Source: a bacterium
GTDB taxonomy: Bacteria > Hinthialibacterota > Hinthialibacteria > Hinthialibacterales > Hinthialibacteraceae
Direction: 5' to 3'
DNA length: 64,000 bases
NCBI GenBank assembly: GCA_016125385.1
Contig: WGLV01000002.1
Span: 186,001 to 250,000, forward strand
Every line of letters begins with the position of its first letter. Positions within the stretch are counted from its first letter, which is position 1. This document shows, one piece after another, positions 11,002 through 25,720 of the stretch. The translations under genes were made by a program, and so were the position numbers. The notes below the pieces were generated by a model. It did no database searches and was not told where the DNA came from. It saw nothing but the letters and a program-made list of their open reading frames with translations.

Positions 11002-13965
11002 ATGGCGGGGCTGTCACGCTTGAATCGAATCAACCCATTCATCTATCTGCTTTTTACCATTACCGGCGGAACGTCGCTGATTTTTCAAGTGACGTGGAAC
11101 CGCGATCTGACCCTGATCTTTGGCGGAACACGGCCTGCCGTCAGCGTCATTCTCTCCGCGTTCATGACCGGTCTCGCGTTGGGCGCCTGGTATTGGGGCC
11201 GCCGTTGCGAGACCGTCCAGCGTCCATTGCGCCTCTATGGGTTGCTTGAACTGGGCGTGGCGTTTTTTGCGCTGTGTTTTCCCGTGGCGCTTCGCTGTGT
11301 GGACGGCGCTTATATCAACGCCGCGCGCGCTCTGGGCGATGGCCCCGCGCTTCAATTCGTAAGAATCGGCTTCGCGTTTTGTCTGCTGTTGATCCCCACG
11401 ACCTTTATGGGGGGAACGCTGCCCGTGCTGGTGCGCCACTTGGTTTCGGCGCAGCGCCAGATGGAGAGCCGTCTCCCGTTGTTGTACGGCATGAATACCC
11501 TGGGTGCGGCGGCCGGGGCCATGCTGGGTGGATTTATTCTATTGCCCGCGCTCGGAGTCATTCATACCCAGTGGCTGATTATAGGCATGAATGCGCTGGT
11601 TGGTTGCACCGCGTTATGGCTGGACCGGGCATTGACGCCGCGCAGCGCGGCGATTGACGCGATGGTCAGTCAATTGCATCAGCAAGGCGCGATCAATGAG
11701 GATGAGTTTACCTTGCGGCTGGCGTTCTGGGCGACGGCGGCGTGCGGTTTTTCTTCGCTTGCGATGGAAGTGTTATGGACAAGAGCCCTGGTGATCGCAT
11801 TGGGCTCGACCACGTATAATTTTACGCTGATGCTCTCCGCGTTTTTGAGTGGAATCGCTATCGGGGGGCTCTTATACCGCCTGCCCGCGCTGCATCGGGG
11901 CGGCCTGGTGAATCGCCTCTGCGTGGCGATGTTTTTCATTGGCTTATTTATCATTCTCGGCGCTCAGTTCGTCCCTTCGATCCCCGGAGCGGCTTTGCGT
12001 TTTAACCAGTGGGTGTATGGCGGTTTTTCCGGCGTACGTCCTCTTACTGGATTCACCATCAGCTTTGTGGTGATGTTCATCCCCGCCGCGTTGTTCGGAG
12101 CCGCGTTTCCCATGGCGGCTGAAGCGCGCAGCGCGTTGCAACATCGGTACGGAAAATCGAGCGGCGAAAGCGTACTGATCAATACGCTGGGCGCGGCGTG
12201 CGGCGCGCTATCGGCGGGGTATTTGTTGATCCCCATGCTGGGATTGCAGAAAAGCATGTTGCTTGCCGGCGTGATTCCCGTAATTTATGCGTCGTGGATG
12301 TACGCGTCGGGTGAAACCGCCGAAACGGGAGAGCGTCGGCCGATGATTTACGCCACTGCCTTAACGGCGATCATGGCGATCGTTCCGTTCGTGGCGCCGG
12401 AGTGGAACCGTCAGGTGCTCGGATCGTTTCGCAATAACGTCGGTCATGCCTTTCTGACGAGAGAAGGGGAGATCGACGTTGAGCGAGCCGTATCCGGATC
12501 GACTGTGGTGTATTACCGTGAAGGCGTCGAGGCGACGGTTTCCGTGACGCAGAGCGACATGATGCGCTCGTTATTAATCAATGGTAAAACGGTCGCCACT
12601 GACAGCATTCATGGACTCGGTTTACAGAAACTGATGGGACACATCCCCTGCCTGCTGCATCCAGATCCGCGCAAAGGGCTGGTGATTGGTCTGGGTGCTG
12701 GCGTGACTTCCGGCGCGGCGGCGATTTACCCCACAATGGAATCGCTCACCATCGTGGAGATCGAACCGGCGGTGATCGGCGGCGCCATGCGCTTCGATTA
12801 TTGCAACAATAAAGTCCTCAAACGCCCTAATGTCCATCCATTGATTCAGGATGGGCGAAACTATCTTCGCGTAACTAATGAAACCTTCGACGTAATCACC
12901 GCCGACCCCATACACCCGTGGGCGGCTGGTTCAACGTACCTGTATACCCGTGAGTATTATCAGGACGCTCGCGCACGTCTGAAGCCCGGCGGCGTCATGT
13001 GTCAGTGGCTTCCACTTTATGAACTATCGACGGAGAACATCCAGTCGTTGACCGCCGCGTTTCTCGCGGTATTCAAACACGTGCAATTGTGGAGAACCTA
13101 TTTCGATTGCATTCTGGTTGGATCCGACTCTCCGTTGACCGTCGACGCGGATTCGATTCGCGCAAAAATGAATTCAGGTGAAGTGAAAGACGATCTGCGC
13201 TCAATCGATATCGGCGACCTGAACGCTTTCCTCTCGCTCTATGTGACGGATGAAACGGAATTAAACCGATTTTGTGCGGGGGCCACCGTGAATTCAGACG
13301 ATAACCTCCACGTGGAATTCACCAGTCCATACACTGTGGGAAGCAATACGTTAAGCCAGAACATGCGGGCCGCGTCAAGCATGGTAAATACGCCGAGTTC
13401 GATCGTCGCACCCGATGGCGTTGAGCGGGATTTATGGCTTGATGAGCTGAAGGCAGCCCAGCGCGTTGAGACCGGCCTGGTTATGTACAAGACGGAACGG
13501 ACTAATGAGGATGGCGAAGATCATGAGCCCTCCGCCGCGGAAATCACGGAACTTACGGGATTGTATAACCGCGCGCCCGATTCGCTTCGCGTTCGACGCG
13601 CCATGTACGATCAGCTCATTAACCGTTCGTACGCGAGTTTGCGGCTCGGTGAACGCGAACAGGCGATATCGATGTTGACGAAGGCCACGGAACTATTTAC
13701 GGCGGATGGCATGGCGAATAATCAGCTCGCGGTGCTGTACGCACAGGGGGACCGGCTTGATGAAGCCATGCGGGAGGCGGACCTTGCCGTGAACCGTTCG
13801 CCGCGAGTTTCGGCCGCATGGATCAATCGCGGCGGCGTTTATGAAGCCGCGGGGCGCTTGGATGAAGCTCTCGATTCATATCGTCAGGCGCTGGCGTTGA
13901 GACCGGGATACAAACTGGCGATGCAGAAAATCATCCTGCTTCAAAGAAAAATGCGTCTTGGTTAA
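11002..13965 (+). CDS. Fused membrane / spermidine synthase-like / TPR protein
   Basis: 987 residues. Residues 1 to about 480 hold some 11-13 membrane helices in two halves, each opening with a related motif (TGGTSLIFQVTWNR and CGFSSLAMEVLWTRAL), as in the MFS-like part of fused spermidine synthases. Residues about 550-740 form a spermidine synthase-like methyltransferase fold: VIGLGAGVTSGAAA (glycine loop), TIVEIEPAV, QDGRNYL, and ADPIHPWAAGSTYLYTREYY at the active site. The last 100 residues carry at least two TPR repeats (AWINRGGVYEAAGRLDEAL). The usual family name does not prove polyamine synthesis; membrane-linked aminopropyl transfer is possible. GGAG sits 7 bases before the ATG. Confidence 0.85.
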   Translation: MAGLSRLNRINPFIYLLFTITGGTSLIFQVTWNRDLTLIFGGTRPAVSVILSAFMTGLALGAWYWGRRCETVQRPLRLYGLLELGVAFFALCFPVALRCVDGAYINAARALGDGPALQFVRIGFAFCLLLIPTTFMGGTLPVLVRHLVSAQRQMESRLPLLYGMNTLGAAAGAMLGGFILLPALGVIHTQWLIIGMNALVGCTALWLDRALTPRSAAIDAMVSQLHQQGAINEDEFTLRLAFWATAACGFSSLAMEVLWTRALVIALGSTTYNFTLMLSAFLSGIAIGGLLYRLPALHRGGLVNRLCVAMFFIGLFIILGAQFVPSIPGAALRFNQWVYGGFSGVRPLTGFTISFVVMFIPAALFGAAFPMAAEARSALQHRYGKSSGESVLINTLGAACGALSAGYLLIPMLGLQKSMLLAGVIPVIYASWMYASGETAETGERRPMIYATALTAIMAIVPFVAPEWNRQVLGSFRNNVGHAFLTREGEIDVERAVSGSTVVYYREGVEATVSVTQSDMMRSLLINGKTVATDSIHGLGLQKLMGHIPCLLHPDPRKGLVIGLGAGVTSGAAAIYPTMESLTIVEIEPAVIGGAMRFDYCNNKVLKRPNVHPLIQDGRNYLRVTNETFDVITADPIHPWAAGSTYLYTREYYQDARARLKPGGVMCQWLPLYELSTENIQSLTAAFLAVFKHVQLWRTYFDCILVGSDSPLTVDADSIRAKMNSGEVKDDLRSIDIGDLNAFLSLYVTDETELNRFCAGATVNSDDNLHVEFTSPYTVGSNTLSQNMRAASSMVNTPSSIVAPDGVERDLWLDELKAAQRVETGLVMYKTERTNEDGEDHEPSAAEITELTGLYNRAPDSLRVRRAMYDQLINRSYASLRLGEREQAISMLTKATELFTADGMANNQLAVLYAQGDRLDEAMREADLAVNRSPRVSAAWINRGGVYEAAGRLDEALDSYRQALALRPGYKLAMQKIILLQRKMRLG

Positions 13966-13995
13966 ATTCAGGGTTCCCTTCCGTTATATGGGGAT

Positions 13996-14021
13996 TATAA
14001 TATGCATATAAAATGCAAGAT
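13996..14021 (+). promoter_or_regulatory. Promoter -10 overlapped by a palindrome resembling an NsrR box (ygbA-type gene)
   Basis: TATAAT at 13996-14001 is a perfect -10; no convincing -35 is seen. From 13999 a 23-base interrupted palindrome runs: AATATGCATAT, one base, AAATGCAAGAT. It matches the enterobacterial NsrR half site AANATGCATTT in inverted repeat with three mismatches. Overlap with the -10 would suit a repressor. Naming the regulator is inference. Confidence 0.5.
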
Positions 14022-14040
14022 ATGCGTAAAGGAAACCAAC

Positions 14041-14406
14041 ATGGCTTTTTTCACCTCTGCATCCAAAACGCTCCCTTCTCGCCGGAAAGGGCCCGCCGAT
14101 CCTGCTGTCGTCAAACTGAATCAGGACGTACTCACAACTTTCGTTGAAGTGTATTGCTGGAAAAACCACCGGCGTGAACGCGGCGATCTGTGTCCTCAAT
14201 GCGACGATCTTCTGCGTTATGCCTGTCAACGCGTCGAACGTTGCCCATACGATCCCAAGCCCAAGTGCAAAACATGCCCGACCCATTGTTACAAACCCGA
14301 TTACCGCAGCCGTATGAAAGAAGTTATGCGTTATTCGGGGATGTACTTCGTCAAACGAGGACGCATCGACTGGCTGATCAAATATTTCTTCTCGCCATCC
14401 ATTTGA
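14041..14406 (+). CDS. ygbA: YgbA-type nitrous-oxide-stimulated-promoter family protein
   Basis: 121 residues from ATG 14041, which has AAAGGA 7 bases upstream. The longer frame from 14002 would start inside the promoter -10 region, so I reject it. The Cys-rich core is characteristic of the YgbA_NO family: VYCWKNHRR, LCPQCDDLLRYACQRVERCPY, CKTCPTHCYKPDYR, then KEVMRYSGMYF. Eight or so cysteines suggest a bound metal or iron-sulfur centre. In enterobacteria ygbA is induced by nitric oxide under NsrR and supports growth under nitrosative stress. Here it is a single gene with a -10 overlapped by an NsrR-like palindrome. Confidence 0.85.
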   Translation: MAFFTSASKTLPSRRKGPADPAVVKLNQDVLTTFVEVYCWKNHRRERGDLCPQCDDLLRYACQRVERCPYDPKPKCKTCPTHCYKPDYRSRMKEVMRYSGMYFVKRGRIDWLIKYFFSPSI

Positions 14407-14428
14407 CCGCATAGCCGCCATCAATGAA

Positions 14429-14460
14429 AATCGCCGCCCGGCGCGAGCCGGACGGCGATT
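14429..14460 (-). terminator. Long hairpin between convergent genes, probable terminator
   Basis: A 14-position stem with a single mismatch and a 4-base loop. On the minus strand it is followed by TTTT, so it most likely ends the gene at 14485. It also sits 22 bases after the YgbA-type gene stop. Confidence 0.7.
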
Positions 14461-14484
14461 CATGTATTCAATTCTGATTATCGA

Positions 14485-17021
14485 TCAATACAACATGAAA
14501 TCATCCACCGACGCGGGCGGCTCCACGCCGAGAACGTAGGCGATCGCCTGATTGGTAAGTTGCAATCCCGCTGAATTCAGCGTGTTGAAGTTGTTCTGCG
14601 AGAAACTCATGACACGGATGCCTGGAACCACGTTTCCGTTCACGGTCGCGCCCTTTTCGATTACCCACAACCGCGCCCGGGAAGGATTGCCCGGATCTGT
14701 TGCGAGAACGCGAACGCCGTCTGGAGGATTATCCATATAACCCATACCGAATACGGACGTCGATACTTTCAGCACGCCCTTATCGAATCCCTGGGTGATG
14801 GGATGTGTGTTATCCACGATTTCGATACTGTCGCCGTCCGAGGTTCCGTTTCCAATTCCAGTTTGGAACAGATAATCGTCGCCAACCGCCTGTTCAAATG
14901 ACAATTGGGGAACCGGGCTGTTAACATGATAATTCATCCCAGCGATATTGCCTGAACCCACCGTTTCGCTGATGATGGCGGCGTCGGCTCCAGTCAGATC
15001 GGCGGGCATTTCAAATCCGGCGCTGTTGGTATCGTCAAACACGACGATGGTTACGCCAAATGTGGCTTGGATATCCGTATTTAACAATTGATCCGAAAGC
15101 CCCGTATCCGAGATTCGTCTGAACAGGTAGACGGTTTTGTTCAGCGTCTGGCCGACCACGCCCAGTGAGGCTTCCCCGCCAGTGAGGATTGTCGGGTCCG
15201 CTCCGACGGTGATTGAGCCGCTGAAGGTATGGATACCGGTCACTCCATCCTGCTTCGTCAGCGTATACGTCAACGTTTGTTCGGCGCCGGTCTGGCCGGT
15301 CATATCCCAAGTGATACTGCCGTCGGCGTTCAGGTTGGCTTGCCCGGCGGAGGTGGTGATCCCGCTGACGTCAAAACCGGCGGGCGGGTTTTCCGTAACC
15401 GTTGATTTGGCTGAGACGCCCGAAGCAACGTAACCGGTAACAGTAACCGTGGTTGAATTTTCGCCCGGATCGAGCAGCGAATCGGCGATGGATCGCGTTG
15501 AAAGCGCTCGCGAACCGAACACGTAACTTCCAAGATTCAAACTTGAAGTTCCCACAATGGCGAGCCATTCAATGCTGGCGCTGTCTTCACGAATCGCGAG
15601 ATGAACGGTGTGTTCGCCGGCGGAGAGGTCAAATGGGCGTGGATCGAGATTTGGATTTTCGCTTTCCACCCACTCCCTGGCGAAGTTTTTACCGCTATTG
15701 ATGTTCCAACGGCTTGAATCGTCTCCAGCAGGATAGTCGTCGATTCCAAAGTGCCATGAGTCGGAGTTCCCGTCTTCACCGCGCACATTGCCGAACAGAT
15801 AGTAAGTTCCCGCCTTGCTGACGTTCAACGTGTATTCGAGGGAATTTGATGCTCCACCGCGCACGGCCATCACCGCGACGCCATTATCGCTACGAGGATC
15901 GACGAGTAGCCCGAAACTGTCTTCGCTGCCTTCACTGGGGACCCCGCTGTTTGCGTAAAAGACTGTGGGAAGAACCGGGTCGACCTGAACTGTGGAAGGC
16001 GTGGTCGCAATGGAGGGCGTCTTGGGCAGAATCGTGTCGCCGCCGATATAACTCTCACGGTTCACGCCGTCGTTGAAGACGCCTTTCCAGATTACTGTGG
16101 GGCCGTCACCAACGCTCACGTCGTATGTCAGTGTGGCGTCGCCGCTCATTCCGTTGAGCGTCCATGTGAGCGAACCGTCCGCGTTTGTGCTTAATTCGCC
16201 GCCGGTGACGCTCGCGTTGGAGATAATCCCTCCGCGAATACGTTCCGTGATGACCGCGTCGGCCGTCGACCCAGAGCGGACGCTCGCTTTGACGGTGACG
16301 CCGGTCAATGTGGAGTCAGCAGAGAACGTGTCGGTTGGCAACGTCCGTTCAACATAAAGTGGTAATTCTTCGATCTTCACTTCATTGAATTCAAACTGGC
16401 CCAGCCCATCGTTATTCTGTGCGGTCGCGGCCAGCCCCACCAGAACCGGATCGGTCATGGGGATCACTTCCGTCTGCCGGTACACCCATTGGTCATTTAT
16501 ATCTCGCGTATAGAAGTGGATGCTGTTCCCGATGCGTTCCAGCCGGACCAGGCCGATGTTGTCATCCGTGAAGCCGCCTTCAGTGTCGCCGTCATAGATC
16601 GTGGCGCCGCCTTTTACGCTTCGAGCGCGTGGGAACATGCTGCCCGCCGCCGCGTTTGTGTTTGACCCGGGAATCGTATCGCTGGTGCGTAGATACGAGG
16701 CGTGCGGAGAATCCGGGTCCAGCGACTGACGGATCATCAGGCCGCCTTGCCCAACCGCTTCAATCGAGAAAGGATCGGCTTCAATGGCGAAACTCCCGGT
16801 CATTTCCTTGTAGACGAAATGGAACGAATCGGTGAATGTCTGACGTCCGATTTCAGCGCCGACGGCGTCGACAAGGTAGCTCCCGTTGTCGAATTCGGCG
16901 AGACCGGGAACGCCCGGGTCGCCTACATCCACGTGGTCGTCAAAGATGCCGAGAGGTTCCTGCGCCTGGATGGTCATGCATGAACAGTGATGGCGAGTAC
17001 AAAAAGAGATGCTTTTTTCAT
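14485..17021 (-). pseudogene. Multi-module secreted beta-sandwich protein; signal peptide split by an apparent 1-base frameshift
   Basis: The main frame (16977-14485, 830 residues) has a concanavalin-like N-terminal domain (to about 205), two related beta modules (STVTENPPAGF and ITERIRGG blocks, each ending NADGS(L/I)TW), a malectin/CBM-like domain between them, and a Rossmann-like end resembling glutamine-amidotransferase folds. It begins MTIQAQEPLG with no RBS. Upstream, ATG 17021 with a perfect GGAGG RBS opens MKKASLFVLAITVHA and stops at TGA in another frame. One extra base near 16977 would join them as a normal signal peptide cleaved after IQA. So the gene is either a fresh pseudogene or a sequence error; everything downstream is intact. 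Function is unknown, probably surface or glycan binding. Confidence 0.7.
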
Positions 17022-17150: not shown

Positions 17151-18344
17151 TCAGTTTTCAACGTCACATGCGAGACGCAAGCCAATGAACTGGCTTCGGT
17201 TGCCCGGAGTTTGGCCGCCGCGGAATGTAACGCGGATGGATTCAGGTGGAAGCGAGACGCAACCGCCGCGAATGACGCGCTCCGCGCTTGATTGCCTGGC
17301 GAAGGGGTTCGTCGGGTCGAGAATCGTGTACGCGTCGACGTGATACCAGTCTTCACACCATTCCCACACGTTTCCCAGCATGTCGTAAAGACCCCATGCG
17401 TTTGGCTTTTTCTGACCGATGGGGTGCGTCATGCCCTTGCTGTTGGCGGATGACCAGGCGAACGAATCCAGATCGCCGGAAGTCAGCGTGGTTCCATCCG
17501 CTGCCGAATCCCAAAGTCCTCCGTCGGCCCGGGCGCAATACTCCCATTCCGCTTCGGTTGGCAGGCGGTAGCCGCCGTGAGATTGCTCGTTCAGTTTTTC
17601 AATAAATCGCTTCGCTTCATACCAGGTGATCGACTCGATTGGAAGATCTCCACCTTTGAAAGACGCGGGATTGCGCCCGCCCATCACCTTCCGCCATTGA
17701 TCCTGAGATATTTCGCGGGCGGCGATCAGAAACGGACGGGCGAGAGTCACGTCATGTACCGGCGTTTCGCACGTATATAAATCCGACCAGGCGTTGTGTT
17801 CTTTCAACATCGCGATTTCATTTTCGCTCGTCCCCATGCGGAACGATCCGGCTGGAATCTTCACGAAAGTCATCCCATCCAGTTCGAGGCTTTCAAAATC
17901 GCGAGCGATTTTCTTTTTGATTTGAACGATGGTGGTTTGGAGTTCATCCGACGCTTTCTGCTGGTCAAGCAGCATGGTTTCAATTCGCTTCGCGGTGTCT
18001 TGACCACTACTTTCATTTTCGGTGAGTTGTTTACGGATTGTTTCGACGCCGGACCTTAATTCATCCAGTGTTTTTTGAAACGATTCTTTCGCGGCCTGAA
18101 TGAACTGGTTTTGCTCCGTCGCCTGTTTTTGCAGATCGGCGATCGCCTGTTTTTGCTGTGTGATGACATCTTTCAGCATCCTGATGGTCTGTTGTTGTTG
18201 GCGTATGACGCTTTCAAGCCGCTGGATGGAAGGCGGCGCGGCCGCTTCCGCTGTGGCGGATTCCACTTCATCCGCGTGCGTGACGGCGCAAAAGAGATTG
18301 AGCGCGATCAGCGCCCACAGGGGGATGGGGTATAGCCTCATCAT
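17151..18344 (-). CDS. Exported coiled-coil protein with SUMF1/formylglycine-generating-enzyme-like domain
   Basis: 397 residues: signal peptide (to about HADEV), a Gln-rich coiled coil at about 38-148, then a SUMF1/EgtB/PvdO-type domain at about 155-395 (IPAGSFRMGT, RLPTEAEWEYCARA, GNVWEWCEDWYH, RVIRGG, GLRLACD). The C-x4-C pair that binds copper in true formylglycine-generating enzymes is missing: after RVIRGG only one Cys occurs. So it should not activate the nearby sulfatase. Such domains otherwise serve as binding or C-type-lectin-like modules. The start follows the DUF1501-like gene's stop after 13 bases with no strong RBS, which suggests coupling. It belongs to the surface module with 18358 and 19985. 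Confidence 0.85.
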   Translation of the reverse strand: MMRLYPIPLWALIALNLFCAVTHADEVESATAEAAAPPSIQRLESVIRQQQQTIRMLKDVITQQKQAIADLQKQATEQNQFIQAAKESFQKTLDELRSGVETIRKQLTENESSGQDTAKRIETMLLDQQKASDELQTTIVQIKKKIARDFESLELDGMTFVKIPAGSFRMGTSENEIAMLKEHNAWSDLYTCETPVHDVTLARPFLIAAREISQDQWRKVMGGRNPASFKGGDLPIESITWYEAKRFIEKLNEQSHGGYRLPTEAEWEYCARADGGLWDSAADGTTLTSGDLDSFAWSSANSKGMTHPIGQKKPNAWGLYDMLGNVWEWCEDWYHVDAYTILDPTNPFARQSSAERVIRGGCVSLPPESIRVTFRGGQTPGNRSQFIGLRLACDVEN

Positions 18345-18357
18345 TGTATTTACAGGA

Positions 18358-20007
18358 TTACGCCTTTTTGATGAACTTCATCGGCGGACGCTCGTTGCGG
18401 CCTTTGCCTTCAGGGTTGATGTCAGCCAGGTAAAGCGCGGTCGCGTATACGTCGCCGTGGTCTGGCGTAAATGATTTTTCGCTTTTACTCCGGCCTTCAA
18501 CCAGGTCGCCGGTGAGCGGATTGTACGCCGGGTCGGTCGAACCATCCGGCAGAATGGGAATCGGCATCAGCGTGTTTTCGCCCGAGCCGCCGTATTGCGC
18601 GCCGCCTTTCACCTTGCCACCCATGAAGAAGCATGATGATACCGGCCAGTGTTGAGAGATGTCCTGATTGAGGATCATCTGCTTTTTTTCTTCCTCCGGG
18701 ATGTTCATCTCTTCGATTTTGTCGACGTCGCCGTGTATGGTTCGTCCAAATTCGGAGGTGATGACAAGGGTGGTGAAGTCGAACAGGCTTTTTCCTGTGT
18801 CTTTGTATTGCGTATCTTTAAGCAGTTGAACGAACGTTTTCAATGGTTTCCAGAGGTCATCATTCATCTTGTCGGTCGTGTCGCGCTGACCGACCGGCGT
18901 CCCGTCGGGTTTCCACAGGTTGCGCCGCGAATTGTGATCGTCGAAACGCCGAATGTCGCGGCTTTCGATCCATGATGCGCAGGTGTAACCACGTTTCATC
19001 AATTCATACGTCATCATCGCCTGAACATTGGCGGCGGGCGAAAATTTCGTACGCGCCTTATTGCCGTTGATGCTGCGATAGGTTATCAGTTCATCCGCCG
19101 GGGTGATCTCGAACAGTTCCTTCAGGCGCGTATCGCTGAACAGCTGGTTGAGCGACGCGCGATCGAGCTGCTGGCCGCGTTCAATCAGGTTCGCGTAGAT
19201 CGATTTCGCCGAATGATAGCTGCGTACCGCGTCGCTTTGAGCGTCGTCGAGAATATTCTGCTCCAGCCCGCCGAGAAACGATTCGATCTGGCTGTTGACC
19301 TGATCGGTCGACATGCGGTGCATCCGGTTGAGAAAGTCGCGCAGGTTGTCGGGCGTGCCCGCATAAATGGTGTGTGCGTGAGAGGGGCCCAGCGCGGCGT
19401 AATAACCCCGGCGGCCGGTATATTGCACTTCGTTCAGCTCTCCGTCTGAAAGCCACCAGTGCCAGGAGATGTTGGGCAGCAGGTAAGGCTGTCCATAGAC
19501 TTCGGCGAACGCCTGCATCACCGAGCGCTCGTCGTCCTGCCGCTCGTCGGTCAACCGCAGATTATAGTTCCCCATGTGACAGCGCAGGCGTTCGCGCGAG
19601 TGGCCTGAACCGGTGTACATAGAACCGACGATCGCCATGTCGGGAAACAGCGCTTCGCCGTCGCGCGCGAGATAGCCGTACCGGATGCCGTTTTTTTCGT
19701 AAATCCCGTAACCGTCTTCGCCCCATTTCAACACGCGGTAGCGTTCGTGCGAGATATCCGACGAACGGTTGATCACGTTGTTGGGCGTCATCACGGGGTT
19801 GAACATGTCGTAGCCCATCCACCCGCCTTCGATAAACCAGTAGACAAGAAAGTGCGGGTTATCGCTCGCGTTGTTGTGATCGGCGGCCATTGAGTCGGCG
19901 CGAACCTCCAGCGGCATGCCGAAACGCATGAAGTAGGCCAGAAATTGCGAGCAAGTCAGGGATGCGGAGCCGTTTGCTATCTGTTTAATGAACTGACGCC
20001 GTCTCAT
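18358..20007 (-). CDS. Tat-exported DUF1501-like protein
   Basis: 549 residues from ATG 20007, preferred over 20037 because GGAG lies upstream and MRRRQFIKQ then begins a twin-arginine signal. The body resembles DUF1501 proteins: HFLVYWFIEGGWMGYD near the start, a GHSRERL block, and late TSEFGRT followed by QHWPVSSCFFMGGKVKGG, the alkaline-phosphatase-superfamily-like core of that family. Its role is unknown. DUF1501 genes usually pair with cytochrome-containing PSCyt/DUF1588 genes, and here the start overlaps the end of such a gene by 23 bases, so the two are translationally coupled. The sequence is more divergent than typical DUF1501. Confidence 0.8.
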   Translation of the reverse strand: MRRRQFIKQIANGSASLTCSQFLAYFMRFGMPLEVRADSMAADHNNASDNPHFLVYWFIEGGWMGYDMFNPVMTPNNVINRSSDISHERYRVLKWGEDGYGIYEKNGIRYGYLARDGEALFPDMAIVGSMYTGSGHSRERLRCHMGNYNLRLTDERQDDERSVMQAFAEVYGQPYLLPNISWHWWLSDGELNEVQYTGRRGYYAALGPSHAHTIYAGTPDNLRDFLNRMHRMSTDQVNSQIESFLGGLEQNILDDAQSDAVRSYHSAKSIYANLIERGQQLDRASLNQLFSDTRLKELFEITPADELITYRSINGNKARTKFSPAANVQAMMTYELMKRGYTCASWIESRDIRRFDDHNSRRNLWKPDGTPVGQRDTTDKMNDDLWKPLKTFVQLLKDTQYKDTGKSLFDFTTLVITSEFGRTIHGDVDKIEEMNIPEEEKKQMILNQDISQHWPVSSCFFMGGKVKGGAQYGGSGENTLMPIPILPDGSTDPAYNPLTGDLVEGRSKSEKSFTPDHGDVYATALYLADINPEGKGRNERPPMKFIKKA

Positions 20008-23000
20008 AAATCTTTGTCTCCAGACCCAGATATTCATTGCTGGTCATGATGGCTTTGATGAGGGCTTTGATGGTAAAATCGTTTTCATGAACGCTGAGCC
20101 ATAGCCGGTGATAGAGCCCGCGCTCGTCTTCATCGGCGCGCATCTCGCGCCCGAAATAAAAATTAAAATGCGTGTTAATGATGGTGCGGATGAAGCGCTC
20201 CTGATTTTGCGCTTTCACCGCGAAAGCCTCCATGCCGTAACCCGGGTAGGGATACGACGCCACCAGTTTCTGATCGCCGTCGTCGATCGGCATACCGCGC
20301 TCGTCGTGAATGCGATATTGTCCCTCGTCGTCCCATCGCAGCCGCTGGTAGGCCAACGGGGTGAGCAGCTTGTGGCAGCTGTAACACGCACTGTCGGGAT
20401 CGGTGGTGGCGGCGGCGGTGACTCCGTCGCGCTGATCGATGATCTCGGGCGGTACTTCAAAGATATAGCCAAGAAACTTCTCAGCCACCATCGCGGGATA
20501 ATTGAAGTGCGGCAGACCGGGTTTACCTTTGATAAAGCCTTTCATGGTGAGCAGACCAGTGTGGCCGTAATACTCGGGCCTGCCACGCTTTTCAAAATTT
20601 TCATCCACGGTGTAATCGGCGGTGAGAATCTCCTGAAACGGCCGGTCATGATAGGCGATGTAACACCACAAACGGGCGGGTTCGTCCTCTTCGGGCGTTC
20701 CCTGGCTTTCGAGATACAGACGGATCCGGTGAAAATAAAATGTTTCAAATTCTCTCGACGCCAGATATCGATCGATCATCTCTGAAAGCGGCGCGCCGTT
20801 TTTCAGCGCGCCGATCTCGCCGCTTTTCGGTGGACGCCCAACGAGGTCCTGAGCGATCTTTACCAGCAGCAGCTGGTTCTTCGCCGCGCCGCTGGCTTGT
20901 GCGGTGGATGGCGGGAGCGTGAAAGTGAAATCGGGGTGTTTGACTAACGCGCGCACAAGCGCCTCCCACGCGGTCTGCCGTGCGCTGGGGGCTGGAGCGG
21001 TGAACGTGATCGACGCCGCGTGAGGATCGGCGATTTTCGCCTGAGGACCGCCGATCTGCTTCCATACAAACGCAAGCGAACTCCCCTGAATATCGTATGC
21101 GGCGGCGGCGCTTAACGTTATCTCGCCGCCCGCGGGTACGCGATGGGGATATTGAATCGGGACGATAGGCGACGATGCGGCGGCGTGAACGATGATTGGA
21201 ACTCGCGTTTCGTTGCTTTCCTGACCGGGAAATCCTACGCCCACCCGATAGAATTCGTCTTTCTTCCATCCCTTGTTTTTCGCGGGCGAATACCGGATGG
21301 CGAGTTCGCCCTTGCGCTCGTTTTTATCGTTGACGGTGTGGTCGCCGGTAATGTTATATGGGCGAAACGAATATTCAGTGAACTCTGGCCAATCTTTAAC
21401 GCCGTCCGCGTCCGGATCGTCGACGATCAGATCGGCGGCGGCGCCGCCGCTGGTGGGCGTAAAGCGTACAGCGTCCGCGGTGACGCGCTTGGTGGTTCCG
21501 GTATTGTTGATCTCGACAAAGTGTTCGGGGCCATCGAATCGGAAAGCGGTGTTCAGGTCCCAGAACGCGATCGTATCGACGGTCTGATCGATGATGAATC
21601 GCGCCTCTCCGGCGGGCGGCGATGCGGGTGGTTCGGGATGAATGAGATGAGATGGATCGTGTGAAAACACTTCGGCGAGCGCGCCGCGCGCGTATTCGCG
21701 TTTATCGTCCTTCATCCAGTTCAGATAGATTTCATATACACCGTCCTGTTTGACCGCGATGGGAATCTCGATCTGGCATTCACCCTTATGCTCATCGTCG
21801 TCATCGAGATAGCGGTTATCGCCGCGCCCTCTGAACATCCACGGCCCTTTCATCTTCAATGCGGAGTCGTTCAATCCGATGGTGAGCGTATCGCCTTGGC
21901 CGACGATCTCCAGGGAATGAAACGTGACGTGTCCCACCGTGTCGCGGTTGGTCAGGGTGAATAGCTGACCGTCATCATTTGCATTGAAATGAAATCGCTC
22001 GCCGATTTGTACTCTGGCGCGGCGCTCATCGGACGTGTTCAGGTCGATGGCTTGCTGATAGAGCCCCTGATCGCGGTTGCGCACGTCAACGGTCAGGCTA
22101 CGCGTAGTGGGAATACCCGCGTCGCCGGTGACGGTGACTTCAAATGACAACGTATAGTCCTCGCCTGATGCGCTTTCGTCTGTGTGATACAGCGCCTGCA
22201 TCATGCGGAACGCGGCGGCGATTTCCGCCTCGCTTGGATTACGGAACAACATCCGCTGGTATATCGCCGTGATCGCGCTTCGGTACTCGTTGTCCGGAGA
22301 GTCCATCTCCAGCGGCGATTGTTGCGGCAGACTGATTCCTTCGAAGGGCCCGGACTGATTCAGGTACGCGTTGGAGGCGACGTCCGTTCCCAGCAGATCG
22401 AGCCCGGTTAGAAATGACGCTGACGGCGTACTGCTCTCGTTGAAACGCAATTGAAAATCCGCGCCTTTGAAGAGATGGATGTTTTCCGCGAAACGGTCGC
22501 GTTCGTTGCGGCGCCAGTCATCGTGAAATATCGTATCGATTTTCTTGCGCAACTGATAATAAGTTAAAAATGTATTGCCACCGGTTGCGGCTGGCGTGGC
22601 GCTCTGATCCGAATAGGGTTTGAGCAGGTTCGGAGGGAAGCGCTCGTCCCAGCGGGCGTCGATCGCCCCGGCTTTGGCGAAAAAGTCGTGACTGAACCGC
22701 TTTACGGCTTGAACACTCGATTCGGGCCACGCGTCGAACGGCTTGGGCGGCATGCGGACTTCGGGATTGGCTGCGCTTACTTTGGCAAGAAGCGATGATG
22801 GGTTTTCTGGATTAAAATAATCGCGATCCATCAGATGCTGAAAAGTGATTTCGCCATCAGGTCCGAATTGCACTGGCGTTTGTTCGGCTGAAGCGTGACA
22901 GGTCAGGCAATTCATTCCTCCTTGATTGAACAGCGGCCAGATTTCGCTCTCAAACCGGGCCGCGAACGCCGCGCGCGTTTCATTCGAAATGGCGGGATGA

Positions 23001-23422
23001 TCCATAAGGAGCTGCGCCGTCGTTGCCGGGGTGGATTTCTGGAGATTCTGCTGCGCGCTGGTTTCATCGGAGGGGGGGACCGGCGTCTGGGGCGATTTAT
23101 CCGGCGTGGATTTCCCCAGTGATTGGATGACTTTCAGCGCGCGGTTGTATAACTCGATCTTTTTTTGCAGCGCTTCGAGTTCATTCTGTTTCAGCTGAAT
23201 GGATTGATTGGTTTGAGATAGAGCGTTCTCAACCTGTTTACGCAATCCATCCGGTTGGCTGGCGGCGTAATCGAGCGCTTTGAGGAATTCGTCGAGCTGA
23301 TCCGGATTTGGGTTTTCGGGCGCACCCCCACCTTCAGCGCCGAACACTGAAACGGTGCAAACCACCAACACTGCCATGAATCCGATCAGCCAGGTTGGAC
23401 AAAGGATTGGGCGATGCCACAT
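19985..23422 (-). CDS. Giant secreted diheme c-type cytochrome protein (DUF1588/DUF1592-like)
   Basis: About 1145 residues from ATG 23422, chosen over 23491 because a signal peptide (LIGFMAVLVVCTVSVFGAEGG) then begins properly. Order: Lys/Glu coiled coil (about 40-100), first heme site CLTCH at 172-176, a DUF1592-like helical region, cadherin- and golvesin-like beta domains (VEINNTGTTKRVTADAVRF), a PKD-like fold (ITLSAAAAYDIQGSSLAFVW), another helical region and a DUF1588-like end with the second heme site CYSCH at 1013-1017. It is presumably a periplasmic or surface electron-transfer or polymer-modifying protein. The gene is coupled to the DUF1501-like gene downstream. The role of this family is unproven. 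Confidence 0.8.
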   Translation of the reverse strand: MWHRPILCPTWLIGFMAVLVVCTVSVFGAEGGGAPENPNPDQLDEFLKALDYAASQPDGLRKQVENALSQTNQSIQLKQNELEALQKKIELYNRALKVIQSLGKSTPDKSPQTPVPPSDETSAQQNLQKSTPATTAQLLMDHPAISNETRAAFAARFESEIWPLFNQGGMNCLTCHASAEQTPVQFGPDGEITFQHLMDRDYFNPENPSSLLAKVSAANPEVRMPPKPFDAWPESSVQAVKRFSHDFFAKAGAIDARWDERFPPNLLKPYSDQSATPAATGGNTFLTYYQLRKKIDTIFHDDWRRNERDRFAENIHLFKGADFQLRFNESSTPSASFLTGLDLLGTDVASNAYLNQSGPFEGISLPQQSPLEMDSPDNEYRSAITAIYQRMLFRNPSEAEIAAAFRMMQALYHTDESASGEDYTLSFEVTVTGDAGIPTTRSLTVDVRNRDQGLYQQAIDLNTSDERRARVQIGERFHFNANDDGQLFTLTNRDTVGHVTFHSLEIVGQGDTLTIGLNDSALKMKGPWMFRGRGDNRYLDDDDEHKGECQIEIPIAVKQDGVYEIYLNWMKDDKREYARGALAEVFSHDPSHLIHPEPPASPPAGEARFIIDQTVDTIAFWDLNTAFRFDGPEHFVEINNTGTTKRVTADAVRFTPTSGGAAADLIVDDPDADGVKDWPEFTEYSFRPYNITGDHTVNDKNERKGELAIRYSPAKNKGWKKDEFYRVGVGFPGQESNETRVPIIVHAAASSPIVPIQYPHRVPAGGEITLSAAAAYDIQGSSLAFVWKQIGGPQAKIADPHAASITFTAPAPSARQTAWEALVRALVKHPDFTFTLPPSTAQASGAAKNQLLLVKIAQDLVGRPPKSGEIGALKNGAPLSEMIDRYLASREFETFYFHRIRLYLESQGTPEEDEPARLWCYIAYHDRPFQEILTADYTVDENFEKRGRPEYYGHTGLLTMKGFIKGKPGLPHFNYPAMVAEKFLGYIFEVPPEIIDQRDGVTAAATTDPDSACYSCHKLLTPLAYQRLRWDDEGQYRIHDERGMPIDDGDQKLVASYPYPGYGMEAFAVKAQNQERFIRTIINTHFNFYFGREMRADEDERGLYHRLWLSVHENDFTIKALIKAIMTSNEYLGLETKIYETASVH

Positions 23423-23631: not shown

Positions 23632-25521
23632 TCATGCGCTGAAAACGTCTATCAGGCGCTCAAACATCCGGCCGGGGTAACCCTTATAACGATCGGGAAC
23701 GTTATCTGGCTGACGTGACATCGATTTCAGCGCGTCAAGCGTCGAACGTGCTTTGTCACCGATATGATCGATGGCGTTCAGCGCAAGCAATGAGACGAAC
23801 ATCCCGTTTCGATCGGGCGGCGTCAGTTCGAGCAATACGGGCAAGGCGAGTTTCAGGCCATCGTCTCCTCCATACCGGCCCAACGCCTCCGCCGCGATGA
23901 CGCGCACATAGGGTGATTTGTCTTTCAACGCCGATCCGAGTTGAGCGTGAGCCTGCCTCACCGCTTCCTCGCCGCGCATCTCGATTCCCAGTGCGGCCCA
24001 GTATCGCATCGCTGAGTCGGAATCATTCAGCGTATCAAGCAGTTGGGGTAAGGCGCCTTCGCGCGTGGAAGCCAATTGCGCCATACCAATAATACGATCC
24101 GCGTCGAATTGCGCCGTATCGTGCCCCAACTGGTAAGGCGATGAATTTCGTGAACGTTCAAACATCTCGCCTTCGGGCAGAAAGCCGACGTCTTTGATCT
24201 CGACCGACCATGCCGTCAGTGCGCGGCTCAGTTCTTCGCGAATGGCCTGATGATCCGGCGACTGGGCGAGATTGTTTACCTCGTCTGGATCGCTTTGCAG
24301 ATCGTATAGTTCTTCAACCGGTTTCTCCTCCCAGAAGTACGTTTTCGGCGGCTTGAGCTTGCCCGCATCGTACATTTCTTTCCAAACGCGTGTAGTCGGC
24401 GTCTGAAACATGTAGTCCAGGTATTGTCCGTATATCAGGTGAGGCATGTAATTGCGGATGTAAACGTACCGCTGGTCGCGGATGCTGCGCACCATATCGT
24501 AACGCTCGTCCATTCGGCCTCGGAATCCAAACGAAAACTCCGGCGCGGCTTCTGTATATGTGCCAAGAAAGGCGCGGCCCTGCATGTGTTCGGGTGGTTT
24601 TTGTCCCGCGAGGCTGATGACCGTGGGCGCCAGGTCGACGAATCCGATAAGCCGGTCTGATGAACCCCCTACCCGGTAATCCGCCGGGCGCAGATGTTTG
24701 AATTTGTCGGGAATGTATACAACCATTGGAACGCTGAGTCCTGAATTGTAAGGCCAGCGTTTACAGCGCGGCATCCCGGGGCCATGATCGCCGTAATAGA
24801 AAATGATGGTGTTGTCGACGAGCCCGTCTTCTTCCAACTGGCTCATAATCTCGCCCGCCTGCGCATCCATTTCCGTCATCTTGTCGTAATACTCGGCCCA
24901 ATCCTGACGCGATTCCTTCACATCGGGGTGATAGGCGGGAACACGTACTTTGTCTGGGTCATGGACCCACTTGTGCGGGCGTTTTCTGATCTGGCTCTCA
25001 TGGGTGGTGGTGAAATTGAAGATGGCGAAGAACGGCTTGCCTTGCGGGCGATTGCGCCAGTGTGCTTTATTGCTGCATTCGTCCCACACTTCGCCGGGCT
25101 CGACCAGGTTGTAATCGGTTTTGACGTTATTGGTACAGTAATACCCGGCATCGCGCAGGTATTGCGGATACATTTTCATGCCAGGCGGCAGAGGTACCAT
25201 GCTTCGCATGTGTTCGGCGCCCAGGCAGGGCGGATACATGCCCGAGATGATAGTGGTGCGAGCCGGTGCGCACACCGGGGCGTTCGACCAGGCGTTGGTG
25301 TAGATCACGCCTCGCTTCGCCAGCGCGTCTAGATGCGGGGTATCGGCGAAGGCATCGCCATAACAGCCCATTTGCGGGCCGTTGTCTTCGCTGGTGATCC
25401 AGAGGATATTCGGTTTTTCTTGCGTTTGCGCCGAGGATGACGACGACATCAGCAAGGCGCTGGCGGAAACGGCGGCTCCGGTTTCCGCGATAAAACGGCG
25501 GCGATTGATTCGTTCAGGCAT
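23632..25521 (-). CDS. Tat-exported sulfatase with C-terminal HEAT repeats
   Basis: 629 residues from ATG 25521, which has GGGGAGG 6 bases upstream; the frame extends to 25617 but has no such site. Residues 1-31 are a Tat signal (RRRFIAETG). The S1-type sulfatase core follows: ITSEDN with metal Asp46, the modified-cysteine motif C84-A-P-A-R88, YYGDHGPGMPRCK, and the C-terminal subdomain ending near 520. HEAT-like repeats (about 530-620: MRYWAALGIEMRG, YVRVIAAEALGRYG) are appended. Cys84 needs conversion to formylglycine by an FGE outside this window. It resembles heparan N-sulfatase and related polysaccharide sulfatases; the substrate is inferred to be a sulfated glycan. Confidence 0.9.
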   Translation of the reverse strand: MPERINRRRFIAETGAAVSASALLMSSSSSAQTQEKPNILWITSEDNGPQMGCYGDAFADTPHLDALAKRGVIYTNAWSNAPVCAPARTTIISGMYPPCLGAEHMRSMVPLPPGMKMYPQYLRDAGYYCTNNVKTDYNLVEPGEVWDECSNKAHWRNRPQGKPFFAIFNFTTTHESQIRKRPHKWVHDPDKVRVPAYHPDVKESRQDWAEYYDKMTEMDAQAGEIMSQLEEDGLVDNTIIFYYGDHGPGMPRCKRWPYNSGLSVPMVVYIPDKFKHLRPADYRVGGSSDRLIGFVDLAPTVISLAGQKPPEHMQGRAFLGTYTEAAPEFSFGFRGRMDERYDMVRSIRDQRYVYIRNYMPHLIYGQYLDYMFQTPTTRVWKEMYDAGKLKPPKTYFWEEKPVEELYDLQSDPDEVNNLAQSPDHQAIREELSRALTAWSVEIKDVGFLPEGEMFERSRNSSPYQLGHDTAQFDADRIIGMAQLASTREGALPQLLDTLNDSDSAMRYWAALGIEMRGEEAVRQAHAQLGSALKDKSPYVRVIAAEALGRYGGDDGLKLALPVLLELTPPDRNGMFVSLLALNAIDHIGDKARSTLDALKSMSRQPDNVPDRYKGYPGRMFERLIDVFSA

Positions 25522-25720
25522 GGTATGCCTCCCCAGAATAGATATCTGATTATCGAAAATTCCACCGTCCGCGTCTACCCGCCGGTTTTGACTGGTAATT
25601 TGAGTGAATGGCGCCACAATGACCTCCGTCCGCCTCCTTGTTACCTCGCGACCCTGTCACGCCTCCTGATGGCGGATTTATGAAATCGATCATCCAACTA
25701 AATCGGAATACGGAGGAGAT

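Follow-up and report, generated by a model that had tools for sequence, protein, structure and literature searches.

Genome comparison showed that two genes of the 64,000-nucleotide stretch of DNA analyzed here (the window), encoding a diheme giant cytochrome and a DUF1501-like protein, form an obligate pair, as judged from their co-occurrence, their fixed order, and their matching trees. A third gene, encoding a SUMF1-like protein, follows this core in the window and in a few other loci. The module is a variant, rare but real, of the unexplained and widespread PSCyt/DUF1501 systems rather than a new category. The initial annotation, which had described three exported proteins of such a system, was mostly right and is partly supported, but it treated as fixed a subunit that is optional.

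The features of the module are listed in Table 1. As first described, the cytochrome and DUF1501-like ORFs share 23 bases, 13 bases separate the DUF1501-like stop from the ATG of the SUMF1-like gene at 18344, and all three products carry export signals, which were identified by inspection (Sec-type for the cytochrome and the SUMF1-like protein, Tat-type, with RRRQFIK, for the DUF1501-like protein). These signals speak for export, but not specifically for the surface location given at first. The size of the overlap follows from the DUF1501-like ATG at 20007, which is preceded by GGAG; an alternative start for this ORF lies at 20037. The sulfatase gene upstream of the cytochrome gene is context outside the conserved core. 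On the other side of the module, an 830-aa protein (14485-16977, minus strand) has extracellular-type (Big_9-like) sequence but, read from its first ATG, lacks a signal peptide, and its start may be wrong or lost.

Table 1. Features of the three-gene module and its neighboring sulfatase gene (window positions; residues are those of the encoded protein).
Feature	Position	Strand	Basis or remark
Diheme giant cytochrome, 1145 aa, core gene 1	19985..23422	-	ORF; ATG at 23422, stop at 19985
Charged helical N-terminal segment, residues 60-106	23105..23245	-	Absent from relatives (alignment)
Heme-binding motif 1, CLTCH, C172-H176	22895..22909	-	Invariant in 15 aligned sequences
Golvesin-C-like stretch, residues 605-655	21458..21610	-	PF25275, 22.3 bits, below cut-off of 31.6
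PKD-like stretch, residues 767-811	20990..21124	-	PF22352, 24.8 bits, below cut-off of 27
Heme-binding motif 2, CYSCH, C1013-H1017	20372..20386	-	Invariant in 15 aligned sequences
DUF1501-like protein, 549 aa, core gene 2	18358..20007	-	ORF; alkaline-phosphatase-superfamily fold
Twin-arginine-type export signal, MRRRQFIK...	19903..20007	-	Inspection; RR kept in all relatives
EFGR motif, residues 419-422	18742..18753	-	Aligns with the sulfatase Asp-His metal motif
SUMF1-like protein, 397 aa, optional third gene	17151..18344	-	ORF; FGE-sulfatase domain, 156 bits
Coiled coil, window-specific, residues 38-154	17883..18233	-	Hydrophobic periodicity 101.5 degrees, p about 2e-4
FGE-like domain without the two copper cysteines, residues 159-392	17169..17870	-	FGE-sulfatase, 156 bits, cut-off 23.3
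Neighboring sulfatase, CxPxR-type motif, 209 bases upstream of the cytochrome gene	23632..25617	-	PF00884, 126 bits

A search of 84,980 species genomes recovered 18 relatives of the DUF1501-like protein (54-61% identity), from Planctomycetota, Verrucomicrobiota, and Armatimonadota. The cytochrome gene lay upstream of the DUF gene in 17 of these 18 loci and elsewhere in the genome in the eighteenth; at one locus (L043), an extra ORF was found between the two. On further sampling, the DUF protein was detected in 17 of 291 Armatimonadota, 4 of 392 Planctomycetota, and 1 of 388 Verrucomicrobiota genomes, counts that overlap with the first 18 relatives. Both core genes, usually in single copy, were present in all of the first 18 genomes and in 15 of the 16 newly found ones, that is, in 33 of the 34 other genomes with the DUF gene. 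All 27 neighboring pairs were encoded on one strand with the cytochrome first, and eight of them had a 4-base overlap. The pairing is regarded as old.

The cytochrome and DUF protein trees contained the same supported groups. The simplest reading of these trees would be that the core pair reached the window genome by transfer, because the window groups with Armatimonadota in both of them though a search of the 13 remaining genomes from the window's own class yielded no orthologue. The window family was not found in a search of viral contigs. Neighbors of the core vary, since glycan genes lie beside some loci only and others adjoin unrelated genes, such as one encoding a TrkH transporter.

In the cytochrome, all four heme cysteines and both histidines were invariant among the 15 aligned family members. 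M224, which is also invariant, is likely to be the sixth ligand of heme 1, and an invariant histidine, H972 or H1085, is a possible sixth ligand of heme 2. Golvesin-like and PKD-like domains had been placed between the heme sites, and both Pfam matches were indeed found there, below their curated cut-offs, with counterparts in eight and seven of the 15 family members, respectively. The relatives are 37-45% identical to the window protein over residues ~121-1132. The periodicity of residues 60-106 was marginal (p about 0.05), which weakened the idea that the cytochrome and the SUMF1-like protein had gained paired coils. In the assembly of another locus (L033:5516-8608), a frameshift or an error divides the cytochrome gene between two ORFs.

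The N-terminal heme region (residues 155-403) is homologous to canonical PSCyt2-type proteins (hhalign E 1.3e-8). In the window cytochrome, DUF1549 scored 13.9 bits, below its Pfam cut-off of 29.8, and PSCyt1 and DUF1553 were not detected; DUF1588 scored 15 bits (cut-off 27), and DUF1592, DUF1585, and DUF1587, the last being one of the planctomycete-specific domains, were not detected. Across the family, weak sub-threshold matches to the PSCyt2, PSD1, PSCyt3, PSD2, and cytochrome c models were observed, and in several members the C-terminal heme region gave weak matches to DUF1588 and DUF1585. The placement of the system near the PSCyt/DUF1501 systems, as a divergent relative, stands, but not its narrower assignment to DUF1588, since the likeness to PSCyt2/DUF1549-PSD1 and to PSCyt3/DUF1588-PSD2 is about equal and all of it falls below cut-off. 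These profile comparisons place the cytochrome among the planctomycete-specific cytochromes, on a divergent branch outside both named architectures.

The SUMF1-like gene followed the core pair in the window and at four further loci (L038, L039, L044, and L048), i.e., 5 of the ~35 loci examined, with tight spacing in the window, L044, and L048. The proposed trio thus recurs but is not fixed, and it is better described as a two-gene core with an accessory; missing at most loci, the third gene cannot be essential to the chemistry. A SUMF neighbor was found at none of 85 canonical DUF1501 loci (77 on IMG/VR contigs and 8 in this genome, by a motif test in the available flanks that also misses the truncated L039 gene). 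This contrast with the four further loci, together with the strand and order kept at 27 loci, argues that the association is beyond chance.

Alternatively, the SUMF1-like protein could stand outside the module, as a separate carbohydrate-binding or structural protein hitchhiking in the operon of some lineages. Its presence at so few core loci would fit this explanation, as would its orthologues encoded away from the core in two Armatimonadota genomes (L054 being one of them) and the abundance of SUMF-like genes, of which this genome has 12. However, five of the seven orthologues (those of the window, L038, L044, L048, and the unlinked L054) formed one clade with 100/100 support against 18 further SUMF-like proteins, among them the ones encoded in this genome, and this single orthologous subfamily is distributed over two separate clades of the core tree. 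The tight spacing and the lack of such a neighbor at canonical loci also speak against a hitchhiker, and so does the fact that all orthologues were found in core-bearing genomes, which were the only ones searched for them. We thus regard a passenger gene as unlikely.

The DUF1501-like protein matched PF07394 with 24.7 bits, under the curated cut-off of 27, and 17 of the 18 family members matched it at E <= 0.01. Homology to canonical DUF1501 proteins extends over the full length (hhalign profile-profile E 2.5e-10 over 418 columns) at about 20% identity. In an alignment of 60 sequences, including a canonical set of 41 proteins from IMG/VR contigs and one from L041, the window family shared with canonical DUF1501, in register, RRxF, a GG strand, SMxT..H, DxH, EFGR, D..HW, and DxxAT. 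H136, D356, H358, and F420-G421-R422 were invariant across these 60 sequences, and E419 and D449 were near-invariant. In most relatives (N-termini in L031-L048, e.g., L041:9926-9990), a conserved Cys-x-[hydrophobic]-Asp motif lies about 20 residues before the twin-arginine signal, so that their Tat n-region is of unusual length and includes a cysteine that is conserved; this motif is absent from the window protein. Dozens of viral-labeled IMG/VR contigs (L073-L149) encode ordinary DUF1501 proteins, which suggests either host contamination of the collection or phage carriage.

A first structural model, built with the 18 close relatives only, reached a pLDDT of 59.6 and gave no significant fold match, whereas the addition of the 42 canonical sequences raised the pLDDT to 79.5, with a pTM of 0.83. 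All 50 Foldseek matches listed from the PDB belonged to the alkaline-phosphatase superfamily (best E 4.8e-4, probability up to 0.99), and they included alkaline phosphatases, LtaS/LtaP, sulfatases, and phosphonate hydrolases. The TM scores to solved structures were only 0.2-0.4, so that homology is supported while the model is approximate. A sulfatase profile aligned to the protein with an E of 1.3e-5, placing EFGR on the Asp-His metal motif and DVYATAL on DLAPT. These alignments and the model identify the DUF1501-like protein as a divergent homologue of DUF1501 over its full length, with an alkaline-phosphatase/sulfatase fold.

The sulfatase nucleophile motif CxPxR, searched for as C.[PA].R, was not found in the DUF1501-like protein, and the Asp-His/Asn metal pair of sulfatases is also absent from it, with the Glu-Phe of EFGR at the aligned site. 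The fold is therefore sulfatase-like, but any chemistry of the protein differs from sulfatase chemistry, which indicates that DUF1501 proteins group with sulfatases by fold without sharing their chemistry. One could nevertheless propose a hydrolytic system, in which the DUF1501-like protein would work as a metal-dependent hydrolase of the phosphatase/sulfatase type and the cytochrome would serve as a scaffold or a redox sensor. The superfamily fold is consistent with this proposal, and H136, D356, H358, E419, and D449 could form a metal site. The missing CxPxR motif and the altered metal pair argue against it, as does the strict conservation of both hemes, which a scaffold would not need, and we consider a hydrolytic system improbable.

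The SUMF1-like protein had been described as having lost the copper cysteines of formylglycine-generating enzymes and gained a coiled coil. The two copper-binding cysteines are indeed absent, but from all orthologues covering that region as well, so that they are lacking throughout the subfamily rather than lost in this genome. The view that the protein is no sulfatase activator of the FGE type was confirmed; a working FGE serving the neighboring sulfatase, as might be proposed from the score of its FGE-sulfatase domain and the adjoining CxPxR-type sulfatase, is highly improbable and was rejected, because these cysteines are missing from every subfamily member covering the region and the sulfatase is not a conserved neighbor.

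The coil first proposed is strongly periodic and is restricted to the window, since it was missing from all relatives. The N-terminus of the protein differs among the orthologues, with nothing extra in L044 and L048, a CBM_4_9-like segment without heme in L193, and a CxxCH motif with a CBM_4_9-type segment (28.0 bits, cut-off 25.9) in L038, where the ORF is frameshifted in the assembly and its pieces were read apart. In L054, the protein has an intact CIFCH and a CBM-like part, the latter without a Pfam match. The combination of a single CxxCH with a CBM_4_9-like segment in a SUMF protein, found in these two Armatimonadota loci (L054:1501-3108, minus strand, and L038:11700-13400), was not met elsewhere.

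Several observations link the module to glycans. At L044, the cytochrome-DUF pair is directly followed, in an operon-like arrangement (11239-16322), by genes for the SUMF-like protein, a 3-keto-disaccharide hydrolase (PF06439), and two sulfatases. These neighbors, the CBM-like modules, and the upstream sulfatase of the window support the link, and PSCyt genes are also reported to be associated with both sulfatases and carbohydrate-binding modules (PMC5615132). Two observations weigh against a role in redox chemistry on glycans, in that glycan genes lie beside only part of the loci and no redox enzyme is encoded within the module.

With about even confidence, we propose an exported electron-transfer module in which a complex of the cytochrome and the DUF1501-like protein would serve redox reactions related to glycans, a non-catalytic docking subunit with the FGE fold being optional. 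The two core proteins would most likely assemble into a single complex, either periplasmic or exposed on the outer face. Given its fold and altered active site, the DUF1501-like protein would most likely bind the substrate or catalyze a chemistry other than sulfate-ester hydrolysis, while the cytochrome would relay electrons between this site and the electron chain of the envelope. From the neighboring genes and the fused carbohydrate-binding-like segments, the substrate is likely a sulfated or otherwise decorated glycan, or a glycan fragment. The SUMF1-like protein may be an optional docking subunit with an interchangeable N-terminal module, and the window coil, which would replace the heme/carbohydrate-binding-like module of Armatimonadota, probably serves in oligomerization or tethering. 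More speculatively, and with a rather low probability, a disabled FGE may still recognize a disabled sulfatase-fold protein, this ancestral FGE-sulfatase partnership having been reused for a diheme electron-transfer complex on glycans, with swappable heme, carbohydrate-binding, and coiled-coil arms.

Planctomycetota and Verrucomicrobiota have many PSCyt/DUF1501 genes, to which no function has been assigned (PMC5615132). As a small single-copy branch of two or three proteins in fixed order, the family described here is therefore a tractable test case for these systems, and its fused heme and carbohydrate-binding-like modules and the L044 operon would point to a testable redox role on glycans.

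A literature search found no paper on DUF1501 together with DUF1588, and PSCyt2 and PSCyt3 genes lie next to distinct unknown families (He et al. 2017, PMC5615132). The canonical PSCyt2/DUF1549-PSD1/DUF1553 pairs, several of which are also present in this genome, resemble the window core in that a large exported cytochrome is followed by a Tat-exported DUF1501 protein, and their N-terminal heme region is homologous to that of the window cytochrome. In contrast, the window cytochrome has its second heme at the C-terminus, a long and beta-rich middle, and PSCyt domains below cut-off; its DUF partner is remote from canonical DUF1501 proteins, and a SUMF-like third gene is optional. PSCyt3/DUF1588-PSD2/DUF1585 proteins have DUF1552 as their partner. 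They share a C-terminal heme region with the window family, as seen in the weak matches of several members, whereas the window partner is DUF1501-like and not DUF1552, and the window cytochrome has no detected DUF1592 or DUF1587.

Cbp2D of Cellvibrio japonicus, in which a DUF1587 region is combined with a c-type cytochrome domain that can reduce polysaccharide monooxygenases (PMC8981238), is also a multi-domain exported c-type cytochrome protein tied to polysaccharide use. Its domain set is different and no DUF1501 partner has been described for it, and it is likened here, as is PorK below, as a precedent with no family assignment. PorK/GldK is part of the type IX secretion system, whereas the partners of the window SUMF1-like protein, a cytochrome and a DUF1501-like protein, are unrelated to that system; no lipobox was seen on inspection of its signal peptide, unlike the lipoprotein signal of PorK/GldK, and the NCBIfam GldK model gave 71 bits against a cut-off of 350. 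The likeness lies only in the FGE-like fold without both cysteines, which in PorK constitutes a structural docking hub (PMC12421860).
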